A stretch of 64,000 nt of DNA from Heyndrickxia ginsengihumi. Its GTDB lineage: Bacteria > Bacillota > Bacilli > Bacillales > Bacillaceae_C. The notes beneath the pieces are model-generated. The model did no database searches, had not been told where the DNA came from, and saw only the letters and a program-made list of their open reading frames with translations. The DNA is taken from positions 1 through 64,000 of the forward strand of contig NZ_JAAIWK010000009.1 in NCBI RefSeq assembly GCF_011008565.1. The letters are read 5' to 3'. Below are positions 16,535 to 54,974 of this stretch, one piece after another. Position 1 is the stretch's first letter. The number at the start of each line of letters is the position of its first letter. The position numbers were made by a program, and so were the translations under genes.

Positions 16535-16548
16535 GCCAACATCTCCTT

Positions 16549-17235
16549 TTATGACATAAATAATCGTACATGCAGTTTTTCATGACGCATTTGGGCAATT
16601 TCAAGCCCTGGTATTACCGCGCCAAAATCTTCAATCGTTAATTGAGTAATCGTTTGAATGCTTTCTTCTAAAATTGGCTGTACCTCAACTAGTATTTGTT
16701 GACCGGCTGACTGACCGATAGGAATTCCCCTCACCGCGTTTTGCACGAGAGAAGATAGATTAGCATATAAATAAGTTCCGACCGCCGTTTTCATAGGTAC
16801 TTCTAAATGGTGGGCAACGATTGCAAATACAATAGCAGCATGTCCGTGAACTTGCTTATTTTGTAATTGATTCAAATAAGCAAGCAATTGTTCTGATGGA
16901 TATAATTGGGCACAAAGCTTAAGCATTCGTTCTCCAATTCTTTTATTTGCCAACCTTGTTTCCTTTGCTAGACATGAGGAAAATAGCAATTGATCTAATT
17001 CAATCCAATCAGCATGATCTTGTATTTCAGCCAGTTCAAATGCTAGTTTACATGCAAGCCCCTCCGTATAAACAAGCTGTTTTTTAAGATAGGTGATTAA
17101 TGCCTGTTTGAAACTATTGCTATCATAGATAACATGCTCTTGAATATAGGTTTCAAATCCAAATGAATGTGAGAATGATCCTGAAGGAAAATTCGAATCG
17201 CATAGTTGTAAAAGTGGAAACAAATTAAGCGTCAT
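16549..17235 (-). CDS. ureF: Urease accessory protein UreF
   Basis: All-helical accessory protein that couples UreG GTP hydrolysis to nickel transfer. Typical start [19 protein letters not shown], the internal GHAAIVFA and [14 protein letters not shown] motifs, and length 228. Its start overlaps the ureE end by 11 bp, so translation is probably coupled. Confidence 0.96.
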
Positions 17236-17674
17236 GATGGTGCCCTATATGGCGAAATGCCTGTTTTACTTTTCTTTTTTCTCGTTTGTAAGGAACCGAC
17301 AATTGCTGCAGTAATTCTTCAACTAAACGGTCGTATTGCACAATCATCTCATTTCCTTCAAATTGCGCCGGTAAATGGCGGTTGCCGAGCTGGTGAGCAA
17401 TTTCCCCCATTTGCTGAAGTGATGTAGGTAAAATCGACAAAACCTCATCCTCCAAAACAGATACAACAATGGCGTTATGTTCATCCATATATAAAATATC
17501 ACCATCTTGTAATTCACGGTTTTCTTTTAAACGAATGCCAAGCTCATTGCCATGGTCTGTTACGACACGTTTCACTCTCTTCACTAAATCGTCGCTTTGC
17601 ATGTAAACACGTTCAATATGTAAATGATGTTGATCGAATTTCGATATATTTCCAATTATTTTTTCAATAATCAT
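17225..17674 (-). CDS. ureE: Urease nickel metallochaperone UreE
   Basis: Nickel-binding chaperone of 149 residues: N-terminal peptide-binding domain (IIGNI...[16 protein letters not shown]) and C-terminal metal-binding domain ([12 protein letters not shown]). The C terminus is short, ending HIGHHHDA, a modest His tail that can bind nickel, much shorter than the His-rich tail of Klebsiella UreE. It is 11 bp downstream of ureC. Confidence 0.95.
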
Positions 17675-17685
17675 CTATCCTCACC

Positions 17686-19395
17686 TCAAAATAGAAAATA
17701 GCGCTGTGCCATCGGAACAATTTGCGCAGGCTCACACGTAATCAGTTCACCGTCAACTTTTACCTCATATGTTTGCGGATCAACATCAATCGCTGGAGTT
17801 TGGTCATTCAATATTAAATCTTTTTTAGACAATTGACGGACTCCATGAATAGGCTTGATAACTTTCTTTAATCCCAATTGCTGGTGAATTCCGTTATCAT
17901 ATGCTGCTTGTGATACAAACGTAATCGCTGTTTTATACTTTGCATTTCCTTTTGCTGCAAACATTTCCCGATATAAGACGGGCTGTGGAGTAGGAATGCT
18001 GGCATTTGGATCTCCCATCGTACTGTATGCAATCATTCCTCCTTTTAACACAAGTTCAGGCTTAACTCCGAAAAAAGCAGGATGCCAGATGACGAGGTCA
18101 GCAAACTTGCCAACTTCTATAGAACCGACTTCATCCGATATACCATGTACAATTGCCGGATTGATTGTATATTTGGCAATATATCGTTTCACCCGAAAAT
18201 TATCACCAATCCCCTTATCTATTTCTAGCTTTCCTCTTTGCTTTCGCATTTTATCGGCAGTTTGCCATGTACGAATAATGACTTCTCCGACACGTCCCAT
18301 CGCTTGTGAATCAGAAGAAATCATACTAAAAACTCCTAAATCATGTAATATATCTTCAGCTGCAATCGTTTCTTTTCGTATGCGAGAATCAGCAAATGCA
18401 ATATCTTCTGGAATATTCGCATCTAAATGATGACAAACCATTAACATGTCCAAATGTTCTTCCAAAGTATTTACAGTATATGGTCTAGTCGGGTTAGTTG
18501 ATGACGGTAAAATATTTGGATAACTTGCTGCCTTAATAATATCTGGTGCATGGCCTCCCCCCGCCCCTTCAGTATGATACGTATGAATAACCCTACCGTT
18601 TATTGCAGCCAATGTATCTTCGACAAAGCCGCCTTCATTTAACGTATCAGTATGAATGGCTACTTGCACATCATATAAATCGGCCACTTGTAAACAAGTA
18701 TCGATTGCCGCTGCTGTCGATCCCCAGTCTTCATGGAGCTTTAAGCCAATAGCACCTGCTTCAATTTGTTCCTGGAGCGGCTCCTTCGCTGAACAGTTTC
18801 CTTTGCCAAGAAACCCTAAGTTCATCGGGTATTCCTCTGCAGATTCAAGCATTCTATGAATATTCCACGGCCCCGGTGTACAAGTTGTTGCATTCGTGCC
18901 TGTAGCAGGTCCAGTTCCACCGCCAATCATCGTCGTAATCCCAGAAGATAATGCTGTTTCAATTTGTTGAGGGCATATAAAATGAATATGTGCGTCAATT
19001 CCCCCTGCTGTAACAATCATTCCCTCGGCAGCAATCACCTCTGTAGAAGCACCAATATTAATATTTACACCATCCATCAATAGCGGATTTCCTGCTTTCC
19101 CAATTGCTGAGATTAAACCGTCCTTTATGCCTATATCCGCTTTATAAATCCCTGTATAGTCTACAATGACAGCGTTTGTTAAGACGAGATCCGCACATTC
19201 TTTACTTGTTGCTAAAGGATGCTGCCCCATTCCGTCACGAATGACTTTCCCACCGCCAAATTTCACCTCATCTCCATAGACAGTAAAATCCTTTTCAATC
19301 TCAATAAATAAATCTGTATCCGCCAATCGAATAGCATCCCCGACAGTTGGTCCAAATATATCAGCATATTGCTTGCGAGACATCGAAAAACTCAT
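17686..19395 (-). CDS. ureC: Urease alpha subunit UreC
   Basis: Catalytic subunit hydrolysing urea to ammonia and carbamate in the cytosol. All expected dinickel ligands are present by comparison with the Klebsiella enzyme: His136, His138, carbamylated Lys219 ([12 protein letters not shown]), His248, His274 and Asp362. The mobile flap carries Cys321 and catalytic His322 (MVCHHLD). Its 569 residues are full length. It starts 6 bp after ureB. No sign of decay. Confidence 0.99.
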
Positions 19396-19401
19396 ATTCG
19401 T

Positions 19402-19716
19402 TCACTCCCTTATGACAGATCCGTTCGTTAATTGATTCAAGCCGAACACTTTTCGTTCCCCAGAAAAAGCAATGAGTTCAATCTCTTTTTCATCACCAGG
19501 CTCAAATCGAACAGCTGTACCGGCAGGAATGTTCAAATGCAAGCCAAACGTTTTCTCACGTTCAAATTGCAGCGCGCGATTGACCTCATAAAAGTGAAAA
19601 TGTGAACCAACTTGAATTGGACGATCACCACGATTGATGACTGAAAGTTTCACACTTTTTTTACCTTGATTACATATAATCGGTTCTGTTTGCAATATAT
19701 ACTCTCCTGGTATCAT
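19402..19716 (-). CDS. ureB: Urease beta subunit UreB
   Basis: Small structural subunit of the (alpha-beta-gamma)3 enzyme. The start chosen is ATG 19716 (MIPGEYIL), the family's usual N terminus, with GGGAGAG 5 nt upstream; an ATG at 19734 overlapping the ureA stop as TAATG would add six residues that contain the ribosome site. The segment [13 protein letters not shown] is the family signature. Length is 104 residues. Confidence 0.96.
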
Positions 19717-19733
19717 GAACTCTCTCCCTTTCA

Positions 19734-20036
19734 TTACCGAATCGGATTATGCACTGTTACAAGCTTTGTGCCATCTGGAAATGTCGCCTCAACTTGAATA
19801 TCTGGAATCATATCTGCGATACCTTCCATTACATCCTCCTTTGTCAAAATTGTAGCACCGTATTGCATTAACTCAGAAACTGTTTTTCCATCTCTTGCAC
19901 CTTCAAGCACTTCGTATGTAATAATTGCAATTGCTTCAGGATAGTTTAACTTTAGTCCTCTTTTTTGACGGCGTCTTGCAAGGTCTGCAGCAACAACGAT
20001 CATCAGCTTATCTATTTCTCGGGATGTCAGCTTCAT
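19734..20036 (-). CDS. ureA: Urease gamma subunit UreA
   Basis: First gene of the urease operon and smallest structural subunit. The start chosen is ATG 20036 ([11 protein letters not shown]), which gives the usual 100 residues; AAGG lies 7 nt upstream. A TTG at 20054 or ATG at 20042 would lengthen it slightly. Conserved [21 protein letters not shown] is visible. The promoter region carries two GlnR/TnrA-type boxes. Confidence 0.96.
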
Positions 20037-20123
20037 ATCCATACCTTCTTCCAATTTTCAAATAGTCATTTCATCATTGTCTTGAATATTTTTATGAACT
20101 TGTTAAGTTTTATCACAATATAA

Positions 20124-41525: not shown

Positions 41526-42905
41526 TTAACAACTTTTATTTGCATAGAACATTTGATTTACAGCTGGTTTCAGGCAATTCCCTTTTGTATGATAGGAAAT
41601 TTCCCCATTTTGATATATGATATTTCCTTTTTGCATCGTTGTATCAATTGTGCATGGGAATGTATGATTTTCATATAAACTATATGGATGCTTTGCAAAT
41701 AAATTTTCTTTTGAAACAAAAAATGGTGTATTCATAGCAACGATTGCTAAATCGGCATCGCTGCCAATTTGTATCGCTCCTTTTTTAGGGTACAGACCAA
41801 ATCTTTTTGCTGGATGAGATGCTGTCCATTTAACAACAGATTCTAATGGAAGTTGATAATTCTTTGCTAGTTCAATTGCACTTAAAAGTGAAAATTGTCC
41901 GCCGCTAATTCCACCCCAAACTTTAAACATATTGTCCTGCTCTTTATATTCCCATGGACATGGCGAGTGGTCGGAAGAAATAAGATCAATCTCATTTTTC
42001 AACAAATGTTTAATAAGCTTTTCTTTATCCCTCTGTTTTCGAAGAGGTGGAGCGCATTTTGCGACAGAACCAAGCCTGCGAAAATCTTCATGACTATATA
42101 TTAAATAATGCGGACATGTTTCTAGCGTAACATCAACACCTTGTTTTTTTGCATTCTGAATGAGATTCACTGCTTCACTGCTAGAAATATGGACAAAATG
42201 AAGCGAACACCCCGTCTGTTTTGCGAAATAAAGTGCGCGGGCAACTGCCTCAGCCTCTGCTTCTATCGGTCTAGATGCAGCATAATCATCAATTGAAGTT
42301 AAGCCATTCCTCATTTTTTTATGCTGCAAAAACGTCGTTAGTGGTCCGCTTTCAGCATGTAAAGCTAACACTTTATGTAATTGTGCAATCGCGTCCATTC
42401 CACGAAGCAATGTATCATCATCACAGGCCTCGAATTCATCATTCCCTGAAGGTGAAAGAAAAGCTTTAAAACCAATCACCCCTTCTTTCGCCATGTCTTC
42501 AAGCTCACACTCATTTCCAGGGACAAGACCTCCCCATAGACCAAAATCAATTAGCGACTTTTGTTTACCTAGTTGTGCTTTCTCGACTACAGCGTTCGCC
42601 GTAATCGTTGAAGGTGATCCATTTAATGGCATATCGAAAAATGTTGTGATTCCGCCAGCTGCCAACATGGCCGATCCTGTTTTAAACCCTTCCCACTCTT
42701 CATTTCCAGGCTCATTAAAATGCACATGGACATCAATCATCCCTGGAAAAATCGTTTTTCCACTGGCATCTATTCTGTTCCGCGCTGAACTATGAATGTC
42801 TCCAATATCACATATGACACCATCTTTAATCCCGAGAGCAACTTTTTTTACGCCATCTTCAAAAACAATATCGCCATTTTCAATAATAAAATCTAAAGTA
42901 TCCAT
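41526..42905 (-). CDS. pucH: Allantoinase
   Basis: Cyclic amidohydrolase opening allantoin to allantoate. Metal-dependent barrel motifs: DVHVHFNEPGNEEWEG, carbamylated-Lys region GFKAFLSPSG, HAES, HFVHISSSEA and SSDHSPCPW. Its 459 residues match AllB/PucH. The HFNEPG variant and the genetic neighbours separate it from dihydroorotase and hydantoinase. It is last of three same-strand genes pucF-pucG-pucH; 37 bp separate it from pucG. Confidence 0.94.
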   Translation of the reverse strand: MDTLDFIIENGDIVFEDGVKKVALGIKDGVICDIGDIHSSARNRIDASGKTIFPGMIDVHVHFNEPGNEEWEGFKTGSAMLAAGGITTFFDMPLNGSPSTITANAVVEKAQLGKQKSLIDFGLWGGLVPGNECELEDMAKEGVIGFKAFLSPSGNDEFEACDDDTLLRGMDAIAQLHKVLALHAESGPLTTFLQHKKMRNGLTSIDDYAASRPIEAEAEAVARALYFAKQTGCSLHFVHISSSEAVNLIQNAKKQGVDVTLETCPHYLIYSHEDFRRLGSVAKCAPPLRKQRDKEKLIKHLLKNEIDLISSDHSPCPWEYKEQDNMFKVWGGISGGQFSLLSAIELAKNYQLPLESVVKWTASHPAKRFGLYPKKGAIQIGSDADLAIVAMNTPFFVSKENLFAKHPYSLYENHTFPCTIDTTMQKGNIIYQNGEISYHTKGNCLKPAVNQMFYANKSC

Positions 42906-42942: not shown

Positions 42943-44184
42943 TTAAACGGTCATGGCATATTTACTGTATACGTCTAATGCAGCTTGAACAGCTTCCCCC
43001 CTATTGACGTTAACACCTTGACGAATCAAAACCGCCTCAAGTCCCGCTAAAACAAACAACACATTTTCCTTTCTGCAGCTATGTCCCATTGTTCCAATTC
43101 TCCATATTTTTCCTTGTAAAGGTCCAAATGAACCTGCAATTTCAATGCCGAATTCTTGTAAAAGTTGTTGTCGAACGATATCAGCATCTACCCCGTCCGG
43201 TACAGTTACACATGTCACTGTCGGTATTTTTGATTGCCTATTACCAAAAAGCTTTAATCCCATAGCTTCTATTCCGTTAGCAAGTGCTTGCTCATGAAGT
43301 TTATGGCGGGTAAATCGTTCTTCTAACCCTTCTTCAAGGATAAGTCTTAATCCTTCGTGTAAGGCGTAAATCATTGACGTTGCTTCTGTATGGTGGTTTA
43401 ATCTCCGCTCGCTCCAATAATCTTGCAGCTGACTCAAGTCAAAGTAGTTACTTATTATGGATCGATGTGCAAATGTATGAAGATCCTTGTCCGTTGCTAT
43501 ACCTCTTTCAACTTTTTTTCTTGATAAAATCACCTTTTCCACGCGTTCATTATATGTAATTGGCGCCATACCAGAAGGTGCCGATAAACACTTTTGTGTA
43601 CCGCCAATAACCGCATCAAGAAACCAACCATCCACATCTACATTTGTTCCTCCAAGCGAAGCTACTGCATCGACGACAAGAAGGGTGTCTAATTCGCGGC
43701 AAGCCTTCCCAATCTCCTCTAACGGCTGCATACATCCAGTTGAGGTTTCTCCATGAACAATTGCTACGATTTTCGGACGAATTTTTTTGATCTCCTCAAT
43801 GATCATTTTAGGTTCGAAAACTTCTCCCCACGGACATTCAAGTGTATGTATTTCAGCACCATATCTTTCACTTATTTCTGTCAGTAAATGACCAAAGCGG
43901 CCATAGATCGGGATCAATACTTTATCCCCTTTTTCAATAAGACTGGCTAATACAGCTTCAATTCCCGCTCTTGATGTCCCATCAACGGGAAATGCCCAGC
44001 GATTTTTTGTTTTAAATACTTGCTTCAACATCTCCATTACTTCATTCATAATATTTGTAAACGCTGGATCAAATTGACCTAAAATTGGCGTACCCATCGC
44101 ACGCAAAACTCGTGGATCAACTTCAACAGGACCAGGCGTCATAATTGTCCTCATCGGTATATATGGTTGATTAATTTTCATCAT
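42943..44184 (-). CDS. pucG: (S)-ureidoglycine-glyoxylate aminotransferase
   Basis: PLP enzyme that moves the amino group of ureidoglycine to glyoxylate, giving oxalurate and glycine. It is an aspartate aminotransferase-fold (class V) enzyme: MTPGPVEVDPRVL, PVDGTSRAGIEAVL, the PLP lysine in GGTQKCLSAPSG, and GTMGHSCRKENV near the end. 413 residues. Start ATG 44184 is 6 nt after GAGGAGG. It lies between pucF and pucH, as expected for the pathway. Confidence 0.92.
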   Translation of the reverse strand: MMKINQPYIPMRTIMTPGPVEVDPRVLRAMGTPILGQFDPAFTNIMNEVMEMLKQVFKTKNRWAFPVDGTSRAGIEAVLASLIEKGDKVLIPIYGRFGHLLTEISERYGAEIHTLECPWGEVFEPKMIIEEIKKIRPKIVAIVHGETSTGCMQPLEEIGKACRELDTLLVVDAVASLGGTNVDVDGWFLDAVIGGTQKCLSAPSGMAPITYNERVEKVILSRKKVERGIATDKDLHTFAHRSIISNYFDLSQLQDYWSERRLNHHTEATSMIYALHEGLRLILEEGLEERFTRHKLHEQALANGIEAMGLKLFGNRQSKIPTVTCVTVPDGVDADIVRQQLLQEFGIEIAGSFGPLQGKIWRIGTMGHSCRKENVLFVLAGLEAVLIRQGVNVNRGEAVQAALDVYSKYAMTV

Positions 44185-44278: not shown

Positions 44279-45520
44279 TTAATAAGCGGCACGATAAAGC
44301 ATTTCCATTAGCATGATAATGCCATTCTCCAAATCATCTGCCTTTGTATATTCTTTTGGAGAATGGCTAATCCCATCTCTACTAGGAACAAATATGAGTG
44401 ATGTTGGACAATAAGTTCCAAACACTTGAGAATCATGGCCAGCACCACTTACCATCTTTTTATAGCTAATGCTTTTATCAGAGGCAATATTCAGTAATAA
44501 TTCAGTTCCTTGTTCATCCATGTGGACCGGAGATATATCTACTGCTTCCGCTACTAAAATGTCCATCTTTTCACGTTTAGATATTTCGTCAATATACATC
44601 ATGATGCTTTGGCAATAGGCGGCTAACACTTCCTTTTGATGATGACGAATATCTAATGAAAATAGGACATTTCCTGCAATCACATTTCCCACGTTTGGAA
44701 CGGCTTCAATATGTCCTACTGTTGCAACAAGACCTGGAAATTTTTCGACTGCCAACTTAGATACAGCTACAATTAATTCCGAAGCCATTTTCAATGCGTC
44801 TTTCCTTAGATTCATAGGGGTCGTTCCAGCATGATTGCTTTCACCCTTGACTTCAATTTGCCAACGTTTTTGTCCGACTATATCGCTCACGATTCCTACT
44901 GACTTATCACTTTTTTCAAGTACTTCCCCTTGCTCGATATGAACTTCTATAAAAGATTCTATATTTGTTCTTTGTGGCGTTTTGTATCTTCCTTTACCAA
45001 ATCCTAATCGAAACATCGCATCTAAGAAGGCAACTCCGTTTACGTCTTTGTAGGTTTGAACATCTTTAATTGTGTATCTGCCAGTAATATTGCCAGATCC
45101 CCAAAAGGCAAGAGGAAATCTACTTCCCTCTTCTTCACAAAGGGAAACTACTTCAATCGTTTTTTTAGGAGATCCATATTTTGCAAATAACGTCTTGGCA
45201 GCAAGCAAGCTGGCTAAAATCCCGTATGCCCCGTCATATTTTCCGCCATCAATGACGGTGTCAACATGTGAACCCGTTAAGATTACTTTCTCTCTATCCT
45301 CAGTTCCTTCCAATCTACCAAATAAATTCCCTACATCATCAAAGTATGTGGTGATCCCAAAAGTTTCCATTTTTTCTTTCAAGGCCTGCTGGGCGTCATA
45401 CCATTCCTTTGTATAAAGCAGCCGTGTAACACCTCCGTTTTCTGTTTTTCCATAGGAGGCAAGCCATTCAATCATCTCACATATCTCATCCTTTAATGTC
45501 ATATATAATGGACTGTTCAT
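44279..45520 (-). CDS. pucF: Allantoate amidohydrolase
   Basis: M20-family dimetal hydrolase converting allantoate to ureidoglycine, ammonia and CO2. Metal ligands are visible in TGSHVDTVIDGGKYDG, LCEEEGSRFPLAFWGS and, near the end, the GAGHDSQVFG segment. The start chosen is ATG 45520 (MNSPLYMTL) after AAAGGAGG; the frame extends to 45607 but has no ribosome site there, and ATG 45502 is another possibility. 413 residues as taken. The nearest relatives are N-carbamoyl-L-amino-acid hydrolases, but pucG and pucH beside it support allantoate. Confidence 0.92.
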   Translation of the reverse strand: MNSPLYMTLKDEICEMIEWLASYGKTENGGVTRLLYTKEWYDAQQALKEKMETFGITTYFDDVGNLFGRLEGTEDREKVILTGSHVDTVIDGGKYDGAYGILASLLAAKTLFAKYGSPKKTIEVVSLCEEEGSRFPLAFWGSGNITGRYTIKDVQTYKDVNGVAFLDAMFRLGFGKGRYKTPQRTNIESFIEVHIEQGEVLEKSDKSVGIVSDIVGQKRWQIEVKGESNHAGTTPMNLRKDALKMASELIVAVSKLAVEKFPGLVATVGHIEAVPNVGNVIAGNVLFSLDIRHHQKEVLAAYCQSIMMYIDEISKREKMDILVAEAVDISPVHMDEQGTELLLNIASDKSISYKKMVSGAGHDSQVFGTYCPTSLIFVPSRDGISHSPKEYTKADDLENGIIMLMEMLYRAAY

Positions 45521-45698
45521 TAATCTTAATTCCTCCTTTCCCTTCCTTTTATAAATTGAATCCATTCTAACAAAGTTTTTTTTCACATCCATTATTAAAT
45601 AATCCAAAAATGAAATTGTATTTTAGCTAACATAACTAAAAAAATTTTTGAATATTTACAGAACTTTTATAACATTTTTACTCTTTAAATGTTATAAT

Positions 45699-45719
45699 TA
45701 CGTTAGAAAATGTAACGTA
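45699..45719 (+). promoter_or_regulatory. Inverted repeat at the pucR promoter
   Basis: TACGTTA-N7-TAACGTA, seven-base arms, begins one base after a perfect TATAAT (45693-45698) and ends 15 bp before the pucR start. It would cover the transcription start, a position suited to autoregulation. No good -35 is seen. Confidence 0.5.
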
Positions 45720-45734
45720 CAATGGGGTGTTTAT

Positions 45735-47396
45735 ATGACAATGAAGGTAAAAGATTTATTCACTATTCCTTCTTTTCACGATTTAAAATTATTAGCCGGT
45801 CAAAATGGAGTTTCACGAAAAATAGAAAACATCAACATGATGGACGCTCCAGACATTATTGACTTTTTAAAACCGAATGATTTACTTGTCACTACAGGCT
45901 ATCACCTCCAGAATCATCCATCTGCCTTAATTGAGCTTGTTCATAAAATGAATGATCGCGGGTGTTCAGCAATTGGTATTAAAACGAAACGGTTTCTTCA
46001 CGATATTCCTCGTGAGGTGATTACTTTAGCAAACGATTTATCGTTTCCTATTATTGAAATTCCTTTAGATATATCCCTCGTGGAAATTGTTAATGACACA
46101 CTAAGCAGCATTCTCGAAATGAGAACGAACGAACTTCGCTACGCAATCGAAGTCCACCAAACATTCACAAATCATATTTTACATGGAAAAGGATTACAAA
46201 AATTATTAGAAAACCTTTCATCCATGATCGGTTACTCTACATGGCTTGTGAATCCATACTTTAAGCCATTAGCCGCTTCCGCAATAAAACAAACAGATAC
46301 AAGTTTAAATCAAGCATTAGAAAAAGTATTTTTTAACGAACATCAATTTTTGTCACCTAAATCACCGTTTACAGTATTTTCGCTGCTTCAAGCTCAAACT
46401 GCTTATACAGTGTTTCCGATTTTAACCTATCAAGATTTTAGTTGTTTCCTCGTAATAGCAGGCGAAATCTCTCCCAATGACCGGTCGCTTGTATTAACAA
46501 TTGAACAGGCAACAAATGTAATCGCATTTGAGCTAATGAAAGAAAATGCTTTAAAACAGTACTCTATCCGTGCAAAAAATGAATTTTTCAACAATTTCAC
46601 GGAGGATAAATTTACATCGACGAAAGAAATTATGAATAGAGCGAAAGAGTTCCAAATTCAAAATGATCAAAAATTCATATGTGTTACCGGAAAATTAGAT
46701 GTGAAGGAAGAATATGTAAGCTTTACTCAAAAACAATTGGAAGCGAACTATGTATATGACTTTTTAGAAAGCGAACTATCTGACACTCCTTTTCAATCCC
46801 ATTTATTTTTAAAAGGAGAAATCATTGTTCTGCTATTTGAATCTAACGAGCAAATGCATCAAAATGACGTAACACCCTTTTTAATGATTCTTCAAAAGAA
46901 AATCCGGAAATTGTTTAACCGAACGATTTCTTTTGGCATAAGCAATGAATGTCAACAGTTTTTAGAAACCCGCATTGCCTATAAAGAGGCAATAGATGCT
47001 TTAAATACAGGATTTCGCGCAAATATTCATGAATTTATACGCGTTCATCAAACAAAAGATATCGAGGAAATTCTCCGGCTCGTGCCTACCGCAGATTTGC
47101 TGGAATTTTACCAACATACACTGAAGGTACTTTCAGAACCGGGGGGAGGAGAAGATGAACAAGTACTGCTAAATACACTCTTTGTCTATTTAGAGACCCA
47201 TTGTCAAATATCCGAAACGGCAAAACGACTTTACGTACACCGCAATACGGTGATTTATCGTCTTGAAAAATGCGAAAACTTACTACATATCAGTTTAAAA
47301 GATCCAGAAGTAACATTTCGACTTCGATTTGCATTACGCATTAGAGAATTATTAAATTTGGCATCCTACCCAAATATTGCAGCGTCAAATGAATAA
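45735..47396 (+). CDS. pucR: PucR-family transcriptional regulator of purine catabolism
   Basis: DNA-binding regulator of about 553 residues. The N-terminal PucR domain (MTMKVKDLFTIPSFHDLKLL; IDFLKPNDLLVTTGY) is a ligand-sensing domain, followed by a degenerate GGDEF-like domain and a C-terminal helix-turn-helix (ISETAKRLYVHRNTVIYRLE). B. subtilis PucR activates puc genes when allantoin or related ureides are present and also responds to nitrogen. The start chosen is ATG 45735 after GGGGTG; the frame runs open to 45648 but without a ribosome site. It is divergent from pucF, and controls it in all likelihood. Confidence 0.92.
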   Translation: MTMKVKDLFTIPSFHDLKLLAGQNGVSRKIENINMMDAPDIIDFLKPNDLLVTTGYHLQNHPSALIELVHKMNDRGCSAIGIKTKRFLHDIPREVITLANDLSFPIIEIPLDISLVEIVNDTLSSILEMRTNELRYAIEVHQTFTNHILHGKGLQKLLENLSSMIGYSTWLVNPYFKPLAASAIKQTDTSLNQALEKVFFNEHQFLSPKSPFTVFSLLQAQTAYTVFPILTYQDFSCFLVIAGEISPNDRSLVLTIEQATNVIAFELMKENALKQYSIRAKNEFFNNFTEDKFTSTKEIMNRAKEFQIQNDQKFICVTGKLDVKEEYVSFTQKQLEANYVYDFLESELSDTPFQSHLFLKGEIIVLLFESNEQMHQNDVTPFLMILQKKIRKLFNRTISFGISNECQQFLETRIAYKEAIDALNTGFRANIHEFIRVHQTKDIEEILRLVPTADLLEFYQHTLKVLSEPGGGEDEQVLLNTLFVYLETHCQISETAKRLYVHRNTVIYRLEKCENLLHISLKDPEVTFRLRFALRIRELLNLASYPNIAASNE

Positions 47397-47520: not shown

Positions 47521-47550
47521 TTGAATATATTTAACACTAAATGTTATATT
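47521..47550 (+). promoter_or_regulatory. Putative promoter of the OHCU decarboxylase gene
   Basis: TTGAAT (47521-47526) and TATATT (47545-47550), 18 bp apart; the transcription start would be near 47557. Confidence 0.5.
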
Positions 47551-47558
47551 TCATTACA
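47542..47558. promoter_or_regulatory. GlnR/TnrA-type box at the OHCU decarboxylase promoter
   Basis: TGTTATATTTCATTACA matches TGTNANAWWWTMTNACA at 16 of 17 positions and covers the -10 and the expected start, so binding there should repress. Confidence 0.7.
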
Positions 47559-47592
47559 CGTTATTTAAAATTATGGTAGGGAGTTGTCGATA

Positions 47593-48102
47593 TTGTTCAC
47601 CATTACAAATCTAAATGAAATGAGTGAAGTGCAGCTTGTTAAAGTATTAGGGAGTGTATTTGAACATTCTCCGTGGGTACCAAGAAAGGCCGCTCGTTTT
47701 CGTCCCTTTCTTTCTCTCGAGGATCTTCATAAAAAAATGGTTGAAGCTGTTAAATCCGCTACCCCAAAAGAACAATTGAATTTAATTCTTTCCCATCCTA
47801 ACTTAGGGGCAAAATCGAACATGAGCAATCTTTCTAAAGGAGAACAAAACTCCGCTGGCATTGATCACTTATCGTTAAAAGACTATAAAAGATTTCTGAT
47901 CGCTAATCATGACTATATGAATAAATTCGGCTTTCCTTTTATCATGGCAGTAAAAGGGCGGACGAAAGACGAAATTTACGAAGCAATGATGGAAAGATTG
48001 CAAAACTCAAAATCCAATGAATTGAAACGGGCATTGGAGGAAATCTATCAAATCGCCCTTTTTCGGCTTCAAGAAATGATTATCATAACAGAAGAAGTAT
48101 AA
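47593..48102 (+). CDS. pucL: OHCU decarboxylase (stand-alone)
   Basis: Converts 2-oxo-4-hydroxy-4-carboxy-5-ureidoimidazoline to S-allantoin. 169 residues, with the catalytic His in LILSHPNLG and the conserved FGFPFIMAVKGR. In B. subtilis the same domain is the N-terminal part of PucL, fused to urate oxidase; here it stops without the uricase. The symbol is used only for that correspondence. The start chosen is TTG 47593, with GGGAG 9 nt upstream; TTG 47584 abuts that site. Followed by pucM after 117 bp, on the same strand. Confidence 0.9.
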   Translation: MFTITNLNEMSEVQLVKVLGSVFEHSPWVPRKAARFRPFLSLEDLHKKMVEAVKSATPKEQLNLILSHPNLGAKSNMSNLSKGEQNSAGIDHLSLKDYKRFLIANHDYMNKFGFPFIMAVKGRTKDEIYEAMMERLQNSKSNELKRALEEIYQIALFRLQEMIIITEEV

Positions 48103-48219: not shown

Positions 48220-48570
48220 ATGACAGGTATTACGACACATATTTTAGATCTTACAATCGGAAAACCAGTAGCAAATATAGTGATTGAACTATTTTACTTA
48301 CAAGATTCTAAAAAATTTATAAACAAAGGAATCACAAATGAGGACGGACGTATAGACAAACCGTTATTAGAGAAAACCGATTTGAAGGAAGGACAATACG
48401 AGTTACTTTTTCATATCGGTCCTTACTCAAGTTCAAAACACACCACCGTAACAAACCATCCTTTCCTAGATGAAATACCTGTTCGCTTTAATATTGTCGA
48501 TGTCAACCAGCATTACCACATACCTTTATTAATTTCAGCCTGGGGATACCAAATATACAGAGGAAGCTAA
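48220..48570 (+). CDS. pucM: 5-hydroxyisourate hydrolase (transthyretin-related)
   Basis: Hydrolyses 5-hydroxyisourate to OHCU. It is a 116-residue transthyretin-like protein; THILDLTIGKPVANI holds the conserved first His and the terminal YRGS is the family hallmark. It follows the OHCU decarboxylase in the same direction. Start ATG 48220 after GTGAGG. Confidence 0.95.
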   Translation: MTGITTHILDLTIGKPVANIVIELFYLQDSKKFINKGITNEDGRIDKPLLEKTDLKEGQYELLFHIGPYSSSKHTTVTNHPFLDEIPVRFNIVDVNQHYHIPLLISAWGYQIYRGS

Positions 48571-48680: not shown

Positions 48681-49865
48681 TTAATGATAACTTTGAACAA
48701 ACCTTTGTTTCGCCCATTCTAAAAGCCGTAAATCTTGATTATATCCAGCGATAATCGATAATCCGATTGTTTTTCCCTTTTGATTAATAAAAGGAATCGT
48801 TAATTGCGGCAAACCAGATAATCCAGCGATACAACTAAGCTGCATTGTATGTGTCCTTGTCATTTCAACTTCATTTAATGACCTGCCGATAGCTGGGGCT
48901 GGTCCTGGCGTTGTTGGCATTACGATGCACCCTGTTTCCCCAAGCAGTTCTCTTAAATGTTGCTGTACTTTAACACGCAGCTGGTTGGCCACCTCCCATT
49001 CTTGATCTTCTCTAATGGTTGCTGCCCATTCAAACCTTTCAGCAATATCAGGACCGAATGCTGGTTTAACTTTTTCAATCCAATCGCCATGCGTTTTCCA
49101 AATCTCCCTTGCTTGCAGCAGGCGAAACGCATTACTCCAAGTTTCAAGTGATTCCTCCGCAATGTTCTTCCTTTTTATTTCTGCATGATTTGTTTTTAAA
49201 CATGATAAATGATCTTGAAGAGTAATTTTTGTATCATCTTCAACTATTTTCCACGCATCATTTGCAATATATACTGTTTCAAAATCCGCTTCATACTCAT
49301 TCCCATCCTGTAATAAAACACTTCCGACATTGCATAAATGCTTTATATCTCTAGCCATCCAACCAATTGTGTCGAACTGCGGCGCTAACGGAATGACTCC
49401 TTCCATTGAAATCACACCATGTGAAGGACGAAATCCAAAGACGCCACAATATGAAGAGGGAATTCTTACAGACCCTCCTGTATCAGTTCCTAACGCAACA
49501 TCTACGCACCCCGCTGCTACAGCTACCGCTGAACCACTAGATGAACCCCCAGGAATACAATCTATTGAATGAGGATTTTTCGGCGTTCCGTAATGGATAT
49601 TTTCTCCGTTTAGGCTATACATCAATTCATCTGTATGTGTTGCTCCTTTTAGCTGCGCTCCCGCTTTTAACATTAATTCAACAGAAGCTGCGTGCTGCTG
49701 AGCTTGCATATGAGTGTCGAGCCAATCTGGGTTTCCCGCAGCATTCGTGTGCCCCTTCACTGCAAAGACATCTTTTACAGCAAAAGATAACCCATTCAAT
49801 TTTCCATTTTCTATCGGGCTAACAGTTAGTTCTGGTGCCATAAATGCATTCCATCTATCCTCCAT
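48681..49865 (-). CDS. Amidase-signature hydrolase
   Basis: Amidase-signature enzyme of 394 residues. The Ser-cisSer-Lys set is seen as Lys in AVKDVF, GGSSSGSAVAVAAG, and the nucleophile in DTGGSVRIPSS. This family hydrolyses diverse amides. The start chosen is ATG 49865 behind AGGAG; the longer frame to 49985 lacks a ribosome site. It lies 130 bp downstream of the YwrD-type gene and is probably in the same operon. Neither a GatA nor an allophanate hydrolase assignment is supported (no GatB/GatC or biotin carboxylase nearby), so the substrate is open. Confidence 0.85.
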   Translation of the reverse strand: MEDRWNAFMAPELTVSPIENGKLNGLSFAVKDVFAVKGHTNAAGNPDWLDTHMQAQQHAASVELMLKAGAQLKGATHTDELMYSLNGENIHYGTPKNPHSIDCIPGGSSSGSAVAVAAGCVDVALGTDTGGSVRIPSSYCGVFGFRPSHGVISMEGVIPLAPQFDTIGWMARDIKHLCNVGSVLLQDGNEYEADFETVYIANDAWKIVEDDTKITLQDHLSCLKTNHAEIKRKNIAEESLETWSNAFRLLQAREIWKTHGDWIEKVKPAFGPDIAERFEWAATIREDQEWEVANQLRVKVQQHLRELLGETGCIVMPTTPGPAPAIGRSLNEVEMTRTHTMQLSCIAGLSGLPQLTIPFINQKGKTIGLSIIAGYNQDLRLLEWAKQRFVQSYH

Positions 49866-49995
49866 TAAACATTCTCCTTTTTTTAAACTAGTCATATTGT
49901 TACTATTCATGTCAGTCATGTCAGCAGATTGTTCACATCTATAAAAATACAATTCTCTGACAAGAAAGATGAACTTCAATATCAATTGCCGATCA

Positions 49996-51576
49996 TTACC
50001 ATCCTAGCGCTGCCCCATCACAGCGGGGGTCTGTCCCACCTATTCGAAATCCCTGTTCATCGATTTGTATCGCATGAGCATGCCCCATTACCCCGTCATA
50101 TGCGTGAACTTTACGAACGAGATGACCCGCTTTAACAAGTGCCGTGCACACATGATCATTTACTCTCTCCTCAATTTTTAACTCTTCCGTCTGTTCTCCC
50201 CACGTTCTTCCCCAAACCCATCGCGGTTCAGATACAGCTTCTTGTGGATTCATTCCATAATGAATGATCCGTGTTATTAATGCTGTTTGTGTTTGCGGCT
50301 GCCCCTCTCCTCCTTGAGTACCGTATAAAATACTTGGTTTTCCATCTAAAAACGCCATTGCAGGCATCAACGTGTGGAATGTACGTTTATGTGGCTGCAA
50401 ATAGTTTACTTGCTTAGAATCTAATGAAAAAAACGAACCTCTATTTTGGAGCAAAATGCCAGTTGAACCAGCAACTATAGCCGAACCAAACTCAAAATAT
50501 AGACTTTGGATAAAAGAAACAGCATTCCCTTCTTCATCTACAACCGCTGCATACGCAGTATCACTTCCTAATGGTTCCGATTGGAATTCATGTGCTTTAT
50601 TATATTGAATTTCTTGCGCGAGCTCTGCACCATAATGTTTACTAAGCAATTTATTCAACGGAATATTAGAAAATTCAGGATCCGTCAACACTTCATTTCT
50701 ATCCCGAAAAGCTTTCTTTAAAGCTTCTATTAATAAATGATAATATTCATAGGAGCCATGCTTAATTGTGCTGAAATCATAATTTTCCAAAATATTCAAC
50801 GCCATTAAAGCTGTAAATCCTTGTGAATTAGGCGGAACTTGATAAACTGTGTAGTCATGATAAGTTGTCGAAATCGGTTCAACCCAATTCCCGTAATGAT
50901 CTGCAAAATCGTCGAATAGCAAGTAGCCGTCATTTTCCCTCATGTATGTAACAATTTCCTTCGCAATGGCTCCTTTATAAAAGACGTCTCTACCATTTTC
51001 GGCTATTTTAATCAAAGACTCCCCCAAATCCTTTTGGACAAATTTTTGTCCAGCACTTGGAACTTTACCGTAAGGAAGATAAATATTAGCAGTGCTTTCA
51101 GTTTCTGCTAGTACACTCTGTGCTAGAGTTGTATTTTTATATTGATCCGGAGAAAACGGAAAACCATTCAACGCATAAGTAATTGCCGGTTCAAGCACCT
51201 CTTTGAAAGAAAATCTACCATATTCTTTCAAAATAGCATCCCAGCTATCAACCATACCAGGAACAGTAATCGCACTTCTAATCCCTCTCGTCGGAATCCT
51301 TCCTTCATCAGCATAGTGCTGCGCATCCAATTGATAGCCAGATCGACCGCTACCGTTATAAGCTCGAAGCTTTCCATCACGTTGATGCCAAGTTAGCCAA
51401 AAGGAGTCACCGCCAATCCCAGTCATATGGGGGTACACAACCGCTAAACAGGCACTAACCGCGACAGCTGCATCAAATGCATTCCCTCCCTTCTCAAGTA
51501 TTCTTGCACCTGCAGCTGAAGCCAAATAATGTGGACTTACTACCATTGTCTTTGTACCAATTTTCGCTTTATTCAA
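49996..51576 (-). CDS. ywrD: Gamma-glutamyltransferase family protein, YwrD type
   Basis: N-terminal nucleophile hydrolase/transferase of 526 residues. The two-subunit core is visible: GGNAFDAAVAVSACLAVVYPHMTGIGGDSFW in the large part (partly shown as GGNAFDAAVAVSAC), and the self-processing Thr in SDTAYAAVVDEEGNAVS beginning the small subunit. No signal peptide, so cytosolic, unlike exported Ggt. It is next to the Lrp-type regulator and the two chromate-transport genes, the same neighbourhood as ywrABCD of B. subtilis. Confidence 0.9.
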   Translation of the reverse strand: MNKAKIGTKTMVVSPHYLASAAGARILEKGGNAFDAAVAVSACLAVVYPHMTGIGGDSFWLTWHQRDGKLRAYNGSGRSGYQLDAQHYADEGRIPTRGIRSAITVPGMVDSWDAILKEYGRFSFKEVLEPAITYALNGFPFSPDQYKNTTLAQSVLAETESTANIYLPYGKVPSAGQKFVQKDLGESLIKIAENGRDVFYKGAIAKEIVTYMRENDGYLLFDDFADHYGNWVEPISTTYHDYTVYQVPPNSQGFTALMALNILENYDFSTIKHGSYEYYHLLIEALKKAFRDRNEVLTDPEFSNIPLNKLLSKHYGAELAQEIQYNKAHEFQSEPLGSDTAYAAVVDEEGNAVSFIQSLYFEFGSAIVAGSTGILLQNRGSFFSLDSKQVNYLQPHKRTFHTLMPAMAFLDGKPSILYGTQGGEGQPQTQTALITRIIHYGMNPQEAVSEPRWVWGRTWGEQTEELKIEERVNDHVCTALVKAGHLVRKVHAYDGVMGHAHAIQIDEQGFRIGGTDPRCDGAALGW

Positions 51577-51657
51577 TGCCCTTCCCCCATCCTATTTAGT
51601 ATCATTTATTTAACCATATATTTTTATATAAATCCATCTATTCTGATTATTTAGTTT

Positions 51658-52889
51658 TTATACTTTTTCAATCTCTATTCTCTTCAATTTCAACACAGTT
51701 GTGGCTGGCTTTGAATCTGAAAATAAAAATAGAAAACCACCTACTAGTAGCAATACACCCGAAACGTAAAAACCTATTTCAATTTTTCCTGTCGCTTCCG
51801 CTAAGTAGCCTGTAATATATGGAGCAAAAATGGATGAAGACATGCCAGCAAAATTAAAAATGCTGTATGCTCGTGAATACATGGATGAAGGTGTGTTATC
51901 AGCAATATAAGATATTAATACAGGGTCAAGTGCTAATTTTCCAATTAATCCGTAAACAATGAGCCCGACAATCATATACGAAAAACTATTTGTATACGGA
52001 ATAACAAATTGGCATACTGTTCCTAATATCGAAAGTAGTACAATTAATATTTTCTTATTTTTTATTCTATCTGATAAGAAACCGAATAATAATGCCCCTG
52101 GAATGGATGCCCACGGAACTAACGATGCAATAATCCCTGTTTGCGAACCGGAAACACCTCTTTCTGTTTGTAAATAGTACGGAAGCCACGTCATCATACT
52201 AAAGAAGCCATATAACGAACAAAAAATTAAAATATAAGTAATGAGATGGTTTTTGCTAAACAGCACTTTCATATTTACATGTTCCATCATCTGTTTTTCT
52301 TTAGCACTTTGCTTATGTCTGTAATCATCTTTAACAAATAAGCCAATAAGCAGTGCTACAACTACTGTAAGAACGCCAAACACATAAAACGAAAACTGCC
52401 AATCTTTTTTTAGCGTAAATGTAAAGTAACTTGAAGCAATAAAACCTGCTGAAATCCCCCGATAGCCATCCCACTATTAATCATCGCCGAAGAAACACCG
52501 CGGTATTTCTTCGGGATGAAATTTGAAGAAATGCCGTACTGTGGACCATAATAGGTTCCTTCTCCCAAACCTGTGATCATTCTAATAAATAGAAACATAA
52601 TCAATCCTGGCGCAGCACCACTAAGCAATGTTCCAATCCCAAATAGAATATATCCTGCTACAAGCACTTTTACCCTTCCAATCCGATCAGCTAAAAATCC
52701 TGCAGGTATTTGCATAACCGCGTATGCAATAAAAAATACTGTCGACATTAACCCAAGTTCACTCTTACTTAAATCCCAGTCATTTTGAATAGTCCCCATC
52801 ACCGGTGATAAAATATTGCGATCTGCATACATAAAGGCCCAGCCCAGCGCAAAAAGAATAATTAAGACAACAGGATTTTTTGTTTTCAA
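51658..52889 (-). pseudogene. MFS transporter (anion:cation symporter-like), frameshifted
   Basis: A twelve-segment major facilitator split into two frames. The first part (from 52889) has the AYADRNILSPV start and GEGTYYGPQYG; after GMAIGG the frame is lost at a run of five C at 52455-52459, and the other frame carries on sensibly (ISAGFIASSYFTF) to 51658. Adding one base, or removing two, in the run restores about 410 residues. Homopolymer position suggests sequencing error or slippage. It is the first gene of a possible operon with the YwrD-like and amidase genes, 81 bp away. The substrate is unknown; family members move organic acids, so a glutamyl compound or ureide is only a guess. Confidence 0.85.
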
Positions 52890-52910
52890 TTTTAATTCCC
52901 CCTTTTTGAA

Positions 52911-52927
52911 TGTTATGATATCTCACT
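52911..52927. promoter_or_regulatory. Weaker GlnR/TnrA-like box before the MFS gene
   Basis: TGTTATGATATCTCACT matches the consensus at 15 of 17. It lies between the likely promoter and the start codon, 50 bp from the next candidate. AT-rich DNA gives chance matches at this level. Confidence 0.35.
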
Positions 52928-52960
52928 CATTCAGACAAAAAAATTATTTTTATTCTGTAT

Positions 52961-52977
52961 TGTAAGATATTATAATC
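52961..52977. promoter_or_regulatory. Weaker GlnR/TnrA-like box at the MFS promoter
   Basis: TGTAAGATATTATAATC matches at 15 of 17 positions, just downstream of the expected start of the promoter at 52987-53015. Confidence 0.35.
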
Positions 52978-52986
52978 TTTAATGCT

Positions 52987-53015
52987 ATTAAACATAACAT
53001 AAACAAAATTGTCAA
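52987..53015 (-). promoter_or_regulatory. Promoter of the MFS/YwrD/amidase operon
   Basis: On the minus strand TTGACA (53010-53015) and TTTAAT (52987-52992) with 17-bp spacing. The remaining part of the 452-bp gap to the regulator gene, 53016-53341, is AT-rich and holds nothing else I can support. Confidence 0.6.
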
Positions 53016-53341
53016 TATAGTTAATTGCAAAAAGAAACTAAAAATTGATTCTTTATTGTTATTTAATTAAGAAAAGAGAAATATCCAACTTCAAATTGTT
53101 GGGTTTTATTTATTTTCTATTACAATACGAAACTAAATTAGATTCAGTAAGCGATTACAATCATTATTTCGTAAAAAAAATGATCGTAAACATAATTAAA
53201 AATCATCCTAATCTATATCAATTTGTAAGTTTAATTCGAATTTTTCATTGATATAGATTAATTGTTTCGTTATATTTAAATCATATAGAAATACAAATAA
53301 CTATTTTGTTTACAATTTGAAAAAAGGAGGACCGGATAGAT

Positions 53342-53821
53342 ATGCAATCGAAACAAGATGATAAACATTCAATCCAACTAGATGAAATTGATCGCCACAT
53401 CATCCAATTATTAAATGAAAACGGCAGAATATCTTTTACTGATTTGGCGAAGGAAATTAAACTTTCTCGTGTTGCCGTTCAAGCACGTATTAATGCGATG
53501 GTTGAAAATGGTGTAATTGAACGCTTTACCGCTGTTATTAACCCCGAAAAGATCGGTTTGCTTGTCTCAGCTTTTTTTAATGTTGAAGTAGAACCAAAAC
53601 ATCTGCAACAGGTTGCTGATATTTTAGCTGAAGACCCTGCCGTATCAAGTCTTTATCATATGACAGGTCCAAGCAAGCTCCACATGCATGGACTATTTAA
53701 AGATAACCGTGAGATGGAAAAATTTTTAGAGGAGAGATTATATCCTCTACCCGGCATTATGAGTGTGGATTGCCAAATATTAATCAAACGTTATAAAAGT
53801 CGAATTGGAATGAAATTATAA
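53342..53821 (+). CDS. ywrC: Lrp/AsnC-family regulator, YwrC type
   Basis: A 159-residue regulator with an N-terminal winged helix ([37 protein letters not shown]) and a C-terminal RAM ligand domain ([18 protein letters not shown]). Start ATG 53342 after GGAGGACC. It is 14 bp before the two chromate-transport genes, as in B. subtilis ywrC-ywrB-ywrA, and divergent from the MFS/YwrD/amidase operon, so it may control both sides. Confidence 0.92.
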
Positions 53822-53835
53822 AGGAGGTTGTAGTT

Positions 53836-54438
53836 TTGAAACAATCAAACAATCAATACTTGCAACTATGCGCAGCTATGGTACGTACCGGAATCCTTGG
53901 CTATGGCGGCGGTCCATCTGTAATGCCCCTTTTTCGCTACGAAGCAGTGATAAGATATAAGTGGATTAATGATGATGAATTCGGGGAAATATTAGCAATT
54001 GCCAACGCTCTTCCAGGGCCAATCGCAACAAAGATGGCCGCATACCTAGGTTACAAACTAAAGCATACTACCGGCGCTATCCTCGCAATCATTTGTCATA
54101 TACTTCCAAGTTGTATCGCAATGATTGCACTGCTTTCTGCCGTCAGTTTTTTAAGTACATCTAAAATTGTTTCCGGAATGATCGCTGCTGTTATGCCAGT
54201 TGTTGCTGTTATGCTTGGAATGATGGCTTACAAATTTGGTGAAAAATCGCTTAAAGGGCTCGGTATTATAATGGGAATAGCCGAATTTATTATATCGTTT
54301 CTGTTATTACAAGTCATTAATCTTAATTCCGGTGTTGTCATTCTTCTCTTTTTGGCTTACGGAAGCGTTCATTTTCGTGTTATTTCGAAATGGAAGAAAA
54401 AAGAAGAAAAGGATAAAGAAAGGAGTGCTGCAGGGTGA
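53836..54438 (+). CDS. ywrB: Chromate transporter, first half-size subunit
   Basis: CHR-family membrane protein of 200 residues (short chain). The N-terminal repeat motif GILGYGGGPSVMPLFRYEAV and LAIANALPGPIATKMAAYLGYK is clear. Short-chain proteins work as a pair with the next gene and are linked to chromate efflux in B. subtilis. The start is TTG 53836 with AAGGAGG upstream. Coupled to the next gene by a GTGA overlap. Confidence 0.92.
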   Translation: MKQSNNQYLQLCAAMVRTGILGYGGGPSVMPLFRYEAVIRYKWINDDEFGEILAIANALPGPIATKMAAYLGYKLKHTTGAILAIICHILPSCIAMIALLSAVSFLSTSKIVSGMIAAVMPVVAVMLGMMAYKFGEKSLKGLGIIMGIAEFIISFLLLQVINLNSGVVILLFLAYGSVHFRVISKWKKKEEKDKERSAAG

Positions 54439-54974
54439 CATGGCTCCATTTATTTCTCGGTTTTTTCATCGCTAATATACTAGGCTATGGCGGCGGTCCA
54501 TCATCAATCCCGCTAATGTATGATCAAATCGTTAAGCATTATCATTGGCTGAATAATACAGAATTTTCTAATATGCTCGCACTCGGAAACGCTCTTCCGG
54601 GGCCGATCGCAACAAAAATTGCCGCATTTGTTGGCTATCATACAGGCGGATGGCTCGGTGTGATTATCGCTTTAGCAGCAACAGTCGTGCCTTCTGCGTT
54701 GTTGCTCGTAATCTTGTTAAAAGTTTTACATAAACATCGTGACTCCCTGGTCGTCAAAGGAATGACCCTTTTAGTTCAACCAGTTCTTGCGATCATGATG
54801 ATCATCATCACTTGGCAAATGGCAAAAGACTCTTTTACATCCATCGGCATATGGCAGGCGTTAGGAATTGCAGCAGTTGCATTTTGGGCGATGGAAATAA
54901 GAAAAATACATCCAGCTATCATCATCTTGATCGCCTTTGCATATGGCGGCATTGTGCTTCAACATGTTGTATAA
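54435..54974 (+). CDS. ywrA: Chromate transporter, second half-size subunit
   Basis: Partner of the preceding protein; 179 residues, with ANILGYGGGPSSIPLMYDQIV and LALGNALPGPIATKIAAF. Starts at GTG 54435, overlapping the stop of the previous gene by 4 bp. Last gene before a strong terminator. Confidence 0.92.
   Translation: MTWLHLFLGFFIANILGYGGGPSSIPLMYDQIVKHYHWLNNTEFSNMLALGNALPGPIATKIAAFVGYHTGGWLGVIIALAATVVPSALLLVILLKVLHKHRDSLVVKGMTLLVQPVLAIMMIIITWQMAKDSFTSIGIWQALGIAAVAFWAMEIRKIHPAIIILIAFAYGGIVLQHVV

Follow-up and report, generated by a model that had tools for sequence, protein, structure and literature searches.

A candidate oxalurate- and oxamate-degrading enzyme pair beside the purine-ureide genes of Heyndrickxia ginsengihumi

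Two adjacent genes of Heyndrickxia ginsengihumi, encoding an amidase-signature enzyme of family PRK08310 and a YwrD-type enzyme of the gamma-glutamyltransferase (GGT) fold, may together degrade oxalurate to oxamate and then to oxalate as the closing steps of the PucG-type purine-ureide pathway, a reading that we regard as evenly poised between right and wrong. Both lie in the window, the whole stretch of 64,000 nucleotides that was analysed (contig NZ_JAAIWK010000009.1, positions 1 to 64,000, forward strand; Table 1). Oxalurate is the product of PucG. The amidase is proposed to be the oxalurate-cleaving enzyme, hydrolysing the ureido end to give oxamate, CO2 and NH3 by analogy with AtzE. The GGT-fold enzyme, predicted to cleave itself at Thr340, is proposed to be an oxamate, perhaps also an oxalurate, amidohydrolase, which would convert oxamate to oxalate and NH3 like HpxW, the oxamate amidohydrolase of Klebsiella (5hft). 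Oxalurate and oxamate would be the final products of purine breakdown that still carry nitrogen. We infer the substrates of both enzymes, the order of the steps and the role of transport from homology, pocket residues, gene linkage and co-occurrence. The first-pass annotation had suggested that a ureide might undergo two amide cleavages alongside purine catabolism; the evidence supports this and allows it to be narrowed to oxalurate and oxamate downstream of PucG.

The amidase, GGT and MFS transporter sequences are all co-oriented on the minus strand of the window, as had been described, but the MFS sequence is split into two open reading frames (ORFs) in different frames. For the amidase, the ATG at 49865 is a likelier start than the end of the ORF at 49985. 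The PucG ORF reached no NCBIfam cut-off in the profile search. The urease genes of the window bear on the fate of ureide nitrogen. The complete MFS-GGT-amidase order was found in the window only; co-occurrence of the genes is conserved at the level of pairs, with MFS-GGT and GGT-amidase recurring elsewhere beyond chance. A single scan of genome contigs gave two loci, one of them (L040) in an alphaproteobacterial MAG.

Table 1. Features of the window discussed in the text
Feature	Position	Strand	Basis
Urease genes (UreG, UreE, alpha and gamma subunits identified)	15920..20054	-	NCBIfam above cut-off
Allantoinase	41526..42905	-	NF004839 646.4 bits vs cut-off 631
PucG, ureidoglycine-glyoxylate aminotransferase (oxalurate-forming)	42943..44184	-	closest solved chain 3isl (PucG) 659.3 bits, then 3nnk 470.2
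PucF-type allantoate deiminase	44279..45607	-	NF006768 542.3 bits vs cut-off 532
PucR-type regulator	45648..47396	+	PF07905, PF13556 above cut-off
UraD (OHCU decarboxylase)	47584..48102	+	TIGR03164 above cut-off
Hydroxyisourate hydrolase	48220..48570	+	TIGR02962 above cut-off
Amidase-signature enzyme, family PRK08310	48681..49985	-	NF006169 480.4 bits vs cut-off 391; Pfam Amidase
YwrD-type GGT-fold Ntn hydrolase	49996..51576	-	Pfam G_glu_transpept and TIGR00066 above cut-off; small-chain match to HpxW 5hft; tree
Thr340 codon, predicted nucleophile, residue 1 of small chain	50557..50559	-	alignment to 5hft chain B residue 1
Broken MFS transporter, C-terminal part	51658..52383	-	MFS_1; frame differs from N-terminal part
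Broken MFS transporter, N-terminal part	52410..52889	-	MFS_1; halves share one frame in 11/12 other loci
Divergent intergenic region	52890..53341	.	no above-chance promoter or nitrogen-regulator box
Lrp/AsnC-type regulator, ChrS family	53342..53821	+	NF053758 287 bits vs cut-off 250
ChrB-family short-chain CHR transporter	53836..54438	+	NF053759 302.6 bits vs cut-off 250
ChrA-family short-chain CHR transporter	54435..54974	+	NF053760 292.8 bits vs cut-off 250

In the tree of GGT-fold proteins the window enzyme falls in clade A and HpxW nests inside clade B, its sister group (100/93 for the group of HpxW and 10 clade B rows); HpxW is a long branch, flagged by the tree program as unsure in its position. 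A clade A GGT and the amidase are both present in the window genome. Co-occurrence was counted in 397 genomes. PucG is present in 56 of the 62 genomes with the amidase (13.7 expected; Fisher 4e-38, kinship ignored), less than 300 bp from it in nine genomes. It is likewise present in 29 of the 36 genomes with a clade A or B GGT (8.0 expected; Fisher 4e-15, kinship ignored), and the two lie within 25 kb of each other at 9 places. The amidase and a clade A or B GGT occur together in 17 of the 397 genomes (5.6 expected) and within 2 kb of each other in 6 of these 17. A clade A or B GGT is absent from 42 of the 56 genomes with PucG and amidase, which, with the unsure placement of HpxW and the large-chain scores given below, was counted against the oxalurate-oxamate-oxalate reading. 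Inside PucG genomes, clade A is scarcer with the amidase (5 of 20, versus 12.7 expected), unlike the prediction of a strict series.

This scarcity favours an unlikely alternative in which the two enzymes would work in parallel: the clade A YwrD-type enzyme would cut oxalurate at the oxalyl-nitrogen bond, chemically the same scissile bond as in oxamate, to give oxalate and urea for consumption by urease, whilst the amidase would serve a separate, urease-independent route. Urease is present in all 15 PucG genomes that have a clade A GGT and lack the amidase, versus 32 of the remaining 73 genomes with PucG (p 2.6e-5, kinship ignored), and a B. subtilis urease promoter is reported to be PucR-regulated. 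However, those 15 genomes span only 7 genera, and the clade A GGT gene is next to the amidase gene in genome G031 as well as in the window. Urease is also found in 23 of the 56 PucG genomes with the amidase and in 9 of the 17 with neither enzyme (8 among the first nine, 1 among the remaining eight), and was for this reason dropped as an unambiguous sign of a route that forms urea. A wider conjecture, quite unlikely in our view, is that Bacillales could possess two interchangeable oxalurate routes, one through the YwrD-type enzyme to oxalate and urea and dependent on urease, the other through the PRK08310 amidase to oxamate and urease-free, and that the short-chain CHR transporters linked to GGT might export oxalate or a similar dianion, for which chromate would be a look-alike.

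Turning to the amidase itself, K71, S148 and S172 are near-invariant among 42 relatives and presumably form the expected Lys-Ser-Ser triad. The enzyme shares the amidase signature with AtzE, which acts on 1-carboxybiuret; 6c62, listed as 'biuret hydrolase' and taken by us to be AtzE, ranks third by score among its solved relatives (122.9 bits). It differs in falling below the cut-offs of the AtzE/HpxY type (NF006631, 203.7 vs 461 bits; TIGR02715, 194 vs 425.75), and between the GGT and amidase genes there is no space for an AtzG-like gene. HpxY is AtzE-like, and the partner amidase in the window is of another family. The missed NF006631 cut-off would suit an amidase that acts on some other ureide or ring-opening product and is only loosely associated with its GGT neighbourhood, as would the 6 of 62 amidase genomes that lack PucG and three loci (L098, L101, L131) at which the amidase has a cytosine-deaminase-like gene and an AtzD-like ring-opening enzyme as neighbours, joined at two of the loci by a RutB/BiuH-like hydrolase. 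The frequency and closeness of PucG in amidase genomes argue the other way, and we consider this explanation very unlikely.

The oxamate assignment of the GGT-fold enzyme draws on its likeness to HpxW. The protein passes the broad TIGR00066 model (558.1 bits, cut-off 357.85), and its N-terminus has no hydrophobic stretch, in agreement with the earlier description of a YwrD-type enzyme without signal peptide. Among solved chains, the small (catalytic) chain is nearest to that of HpxW at 174.6 bits, with 2nlz next at 126.2 and E. coli GGT at 65.5, and the HpxW small chain is 47-53% identical to clade A. The match of the large chain to HpxW is weaker (5hft_A, 153.1 bits) than to H. pylori-type chains (166.4) or E. 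coli GGT (167.0); over the whole protein, 2nlz scores 328.7 bits, equal to the two HpxW chains summed. All five small-chain positions checked in the E. coli GGT pocket, N411, Q430, D433, S462 and S463, are replaced, by Y, R, F, H and T. Four of these are the HpxW residue (Tyr 411, Arg 430, His 462, Thr 463), whereas at 433 HpxW has Ala in place of Phe. Four motifs taken from the alignment with HpxW are present in 19-22 of the 22 clade A rows, 9-15 of the 15 clade B rows and none of the 29 clade C rows. Most of the pocket replacements are also common to clade C, and His/Thr at 462/463 is found in thermophile proteins still called GGTs, according to a 2021 review (PMC8062742). HpxW and the window enzyme also share a purine pathway context. 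Gamma-glutamyl substrates are unlikely for this enzyme, and the gamma-glutamyl amide offered by the first-pass annotation is unsupported as the main reading because of the pocket replacements; catabolism of such amides, to which the Pfam and TIGR00066 labels, the large-chain scores and a gamma-glutamyl-GABA-hydrolase-like ORF after the amidase in H. akibai (116 bits, under the family cut-off of 266) could point, is most improbable given those replacements, the purine gene context and the statement of Minami 2004 that B. subtilis needs GGT but not YwrD to use glutathione. The YwrD-type enzyme is probably usually mislabelled as a gamma-glutamyl enzyme.

YwrD of B. subtilis is very probably orthologous to the window GGT, since four genomes with a clade A enzyme, all from a single genus, have GGT divergent from ChrS-CHR-CHR, the arrangement of ywrD-ywrCBA in B. 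subtilis. The PRK08310 family matched none of 14 control genomes, B. subtilis among them, which fits the earlier view that B. subtilis has the ywrD part only, the MFS and amidase genes being additions in the window. The likeness of YwrD to HpxW has been published (Danchin 2016), and its role is given as unassigned in the 2021 review (PMC8062742).

Transporters of several kinds adjoin these genes. An MFS gene lies within 1.5 kb of GGT at 12 of 22 clade A loci (the window and the remnant at L106 counted), none of 15 in clade B and 1 of 29 in clade C. Both MFS halves are in a single frame at 11 of the 12 other loci compared, L106 having a short N-terminal match only, so the break in the window reflects either a frameshifted pseudogene or an error in the sequence, and the uptake step once envisaged for this genome is doubtful. 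Where intact in relatives, the transporter may move a small carboxylate (oxamate, oxalurate or oxalate); the intact relative at L142 scores 168.3 bits with TIGR00893 (anion:cation symporter MFS), below the cut-off of 395 although this is its best family. At 5 loci a clade B GGT has an LctP-type permease as its neighbour, and at L152 one is preceded by TctCBA and an Lrp gene; such carboxylate transporters beside HpxW-like genes were counted in favour of the oxalurate/oxamate reading. At L099 the order on one strand is PucF-PucG-amidase-FAH-GGT-CHR-CHR. A CHR pair occurs near GGT at 12 of 22 clade A, 6 of 15 clade B and 16 of 29 clade C loci, and its linkage was dropped as specific evidence on account of clade C.

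The divergent Lrp-type regulator noted earlier is indeed an Lrp/AsnC ORF, but one that passes the ChrS cut-off and heads a set of chromate-type (CHR) transporters, being followed by ChrB and ChrA, both over cut-off. With its family and its own transporter set, it was rejected as a regulator dedicated to the amidase-GGT module. At 17 of 22 clade A loci a match of Lrp/ChrS type is found no more than 1.5 kb from GGT, so joint control by a gene of this type is possible. One-mismatch nitrogen-regulator boxes in front of the MFS gene were no more frequent than chance (35 found, 41.5 expected), and promoter-like sites (19 versus 20.1) and terminator-like sites (5 versus 3.4) were near chance.

The oxamic transcarbamylase AllFGH of E. 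coli, which converts oxalurate, yielding oxamate (PMC11326118), shares the substrate proposed here but is an unrelated system; AllG was found in none of the 80 PucG genomes searched, the window genome included, whilst the E. coli control matched. The literature extracts assign no enzyme to oxalurate downstream of PucG in Bacillus, and in the literature searched no paper was found that ties in the PRK08310 amidase. If the oxalurate-oxamate-oxalate reading is true, a 'gamma-glutamyltransferase' and an unassigned amidase would supply the final steps by which Bacillales recover nitrogen from purines.

Across 397 genomes of the order, the PRK08310 amidase was found in 62 (65 places), the GGT-fold enzyme in 36 (E <= 1e-125) and PucG, which forms oxalurate, in 88 (E <= 2.3e-170, a count that leaves out, as probable paralogues, 25 genomes with matches of 44-48% at most). 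PucG was present in 56 of the 62 amidase genomes (13.7 expected; Fisher 4e-38) and in 29 of the 36 genomes with the GGT-fold enzyme (8.0 expected; Fisher 4e-15), and amidase and GGT-fold enzyme occurred together in 17 (5.6 expected; 2e-6), kinship being ignored in all three figures; these 17 are 12 of the 15 clade B genomes and 5 of the 21 in clade A. Within 25 kb, amidase and PucG are paired in 30 genomes (9 at <300 bp), amidase and GGT-fold enzyme in 10, and GGT-fold enzyme and PucG in 9. AllG, a marker of the known oxalurate route, was detected in none of the 80 PucG genomes searched of the 88, the E. coli control being positive.

The small chain of the GGT-fold enzyme scored best against 5hft_B (174.6 bits), which we take to be HpxW, the oxamate amidohydrolase of Klebsiella, ahead of 2nlz (126.2), 2i3o (91.6) and E. 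coli GGT (65.5); the large chain favoured E. coli GGT (167.0) over 5hft_A (153.1), and at full length 2nlz was top (328.7). Sorted by identity to the window protein, 66 sequences including it fall into clades A (63-100%, n = 22), B (43-49%, n = 15) and C (36-39%, n = 29), each a single group in a small-chain tree, with HpxW on a long branch within B. At E. coli GGT positions 411, 430, 433, 462 and 463 the window protein has Y, R, F, H and T, differing from HpxW at 433 (A) and from E. coli GGT (N, Q, D, S, S) at all five. Since these pocket residues are largely common to clade C (R430 and T463 in 29 of 29 rows, Y411 and H462 in most), they separate the whole group from classical GGT rather than A and B from C. 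The latter separation is made by four motifs picked after inspection of the HpxW alignment, FHTLxPA, GGxGQPQTQ, GRTWG and MGHA, present in 22, 22, 21 and 19 of 22 clade A rows, in 9, 14, 14 and 15 of 15 clade B rows and in none of 29 clade C rows. The second GGT-fold protein of the window genome, on another contig, belongs to clade C. One clade B protein (L036 8885-10615, genome G002) begins with a hydrophobic stretch resembling a signal peptide, and may be a secreted form.

In the literature, YwrD is described as very similar to HpxW and as co-evolving with xanthine-degradation enzymes (Danchin 2016, PMC5270733, whose references include the HpxW paper), ywrD is placed among TnrA-regulated genes (PMC4475385; PMC3412718), and hpxY and hpxW appear in an amidohydrolase tree (PMC12625717). 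No assignment of oxalurate to a PRK08310 amidase was recognised among the papers listed by a literature search covering a minority of subscription journals.

The first-pass annotation had placed three co-oriented genes, for an MFS transporter, a YwrD-type N-terminal-nucleophile enzyme and an amidase of the signature family, beside purine catabolism and divergent from an Lrp-type regulator. The run, in which the middle gene matches G_glu_transpept, and its purine neighbourhood are there (see table), as is the Lrp-type gene, but over the ChrS cut-off and followed by ChrB and ChrA. The transporter sequence is present but not as an intact gene: its N- and C-terminal parts lie in different frames, as against one frame at 11 of 12 other loci. 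At the twelfth (L106 8668-8913, genome G402) a short N-terminal match stands alone upstream of the GGT-fold gene; decay of the transporter may therefore have happened on more than one occasion. The C-terminal part ends 81 bp before the GGT-fold frame, and the amidase frame opens 10 bp past the latter. In six relatives (L139, L140, L142, L148, L149, L150) the MFS and GGT-fold frames overlap by 1-4 bases, which suggests a single transcript there.

Features of the window and its purine-catabolism neighbourhood
Feature	Position	Remark
Minus-strand run	52889-48681	MFS sequence, GGT-fold enzyme, amidase
GGT-fold enzyme	49996-51576 (-)	small chain predicted from Thr340
Amidase	48681-49985 (-)	likelier start ATG at 49865
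CHR pair	53836-54974	
PucG	upstream of module	closest solved chain 3isl (PucG), 659.3 bits
Allantoinase, allantoate deiminase, PucR-type regulator, UraD, hydroxyisourate hydrolase	upstream of module	
Xanthine-permease-family gene	55678-56982	
Urease genes	~15.9-20.05 kb	
TGTNAN7TNACA, two boxes	20101-20140	before urease gamma-subunit gene
TGTNAN7TNACA	47542-47558	before uraD
TGTNAN7TNACA	57039-57055	before xanthine permease

Exact TGTNAN7TNACA boxes, of the TnrA/GlnR type, number five in the window against 1.6 expected; besides the four in the table, there is one within the broken MFS sequence.

The type of transporter beside HpxW-like genes varies: in clade A it is MFS at 12 of 22 loci, and in clade B an LctP-type permease at five (L153-L157) and TctCBA at another (L152). 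Oxamate is an analogue of pyruvate and lactate, so an LctP-type permease fits. A short-chain CHR ('chromate') pair lies within 1.5 kb of the GGT-fold gene at 34 of 66 loci in all three clades (that of the window, L014, L016 and L129 among others), which suggests a common natural substrate other than chromate.

Of sixty stretches taken to compare neighbourhoods, one (L132) lacked both genes. Forty-two amidase loci were used, one from Halalkalibacter akibai and the others from 41 of the 65 places; they have as neighbours PucG (19), allantoate deiminase (17), PucR (17), a GGT-fold gene of any clade (11) and an MFS gene of the window kind (2). At L099 deiminase, PucG, amidase, a fumarylacetoacetate-hydrolase-family (FAH) gene, GGT-fold gene and two CHR genes share one strand, and in H. 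akibai the amidase directly follows PucG; an ORF resembling gamma-glutamyl-GABA hydrolase, under the family cut-off, comes after it (L039 11246-11965). The amidase adjoins a clade C gene at two further loci, L129 and L134, the latter also with an MFS gene, in a different order. An FAH gene occurs at 17 of the 42 loci, in 16 as immediate neighbour. The first product of the amidase would be N-carboxyoxamate, a compound similar to oxaloacetate. Since some oxaloacetate decarboxylases have the FAH fold, the FAH protein may by analogy speed the decarboxylation of N-carboxyoxamate. Three loci (L098, L101, L131) combine amidase and FAH genes with an AtzD-like ring-opening amidohydrolase, a cytosine-deaminase-like gene, an SsuA-type ABC transporter and a PucR-type regulator, the first two adding a RutB/BiuH-like hydrolase, a GGT-fold gene and the CHR pair; such sets may encode an undescribed pathway acting on an oxidised ring of the pyrimidine or triazine kind.

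There is about an even chance that the two enzymes work in series, the amidase acting first, from oxalurate to oxamate, and the GGT-fold enzyme second, to oxalate. A series fits genomes with both genes, such as G031, where they lie 97 bp apart and the search for urease alpha subunit gave a weak match and nothing beyond. That they are instead parallel routes seems unlikely. Parallel action fits the rarity of clade A with the amidase among PucG genomes (5 of 20, against 12.7 expected) and the presence of urease in all 15 PucG genomes having clade A but no amidase, but urease also occurs in 9 of the 17 PucG genomes that lack both enzymes and in 23 of the 56 with the amidase (counted at best E <1e-50, with the remaining matches all above 1e-6). 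Whether by the series or otherwise, the module probably serves an oxalurate/oxamate branch in some form.
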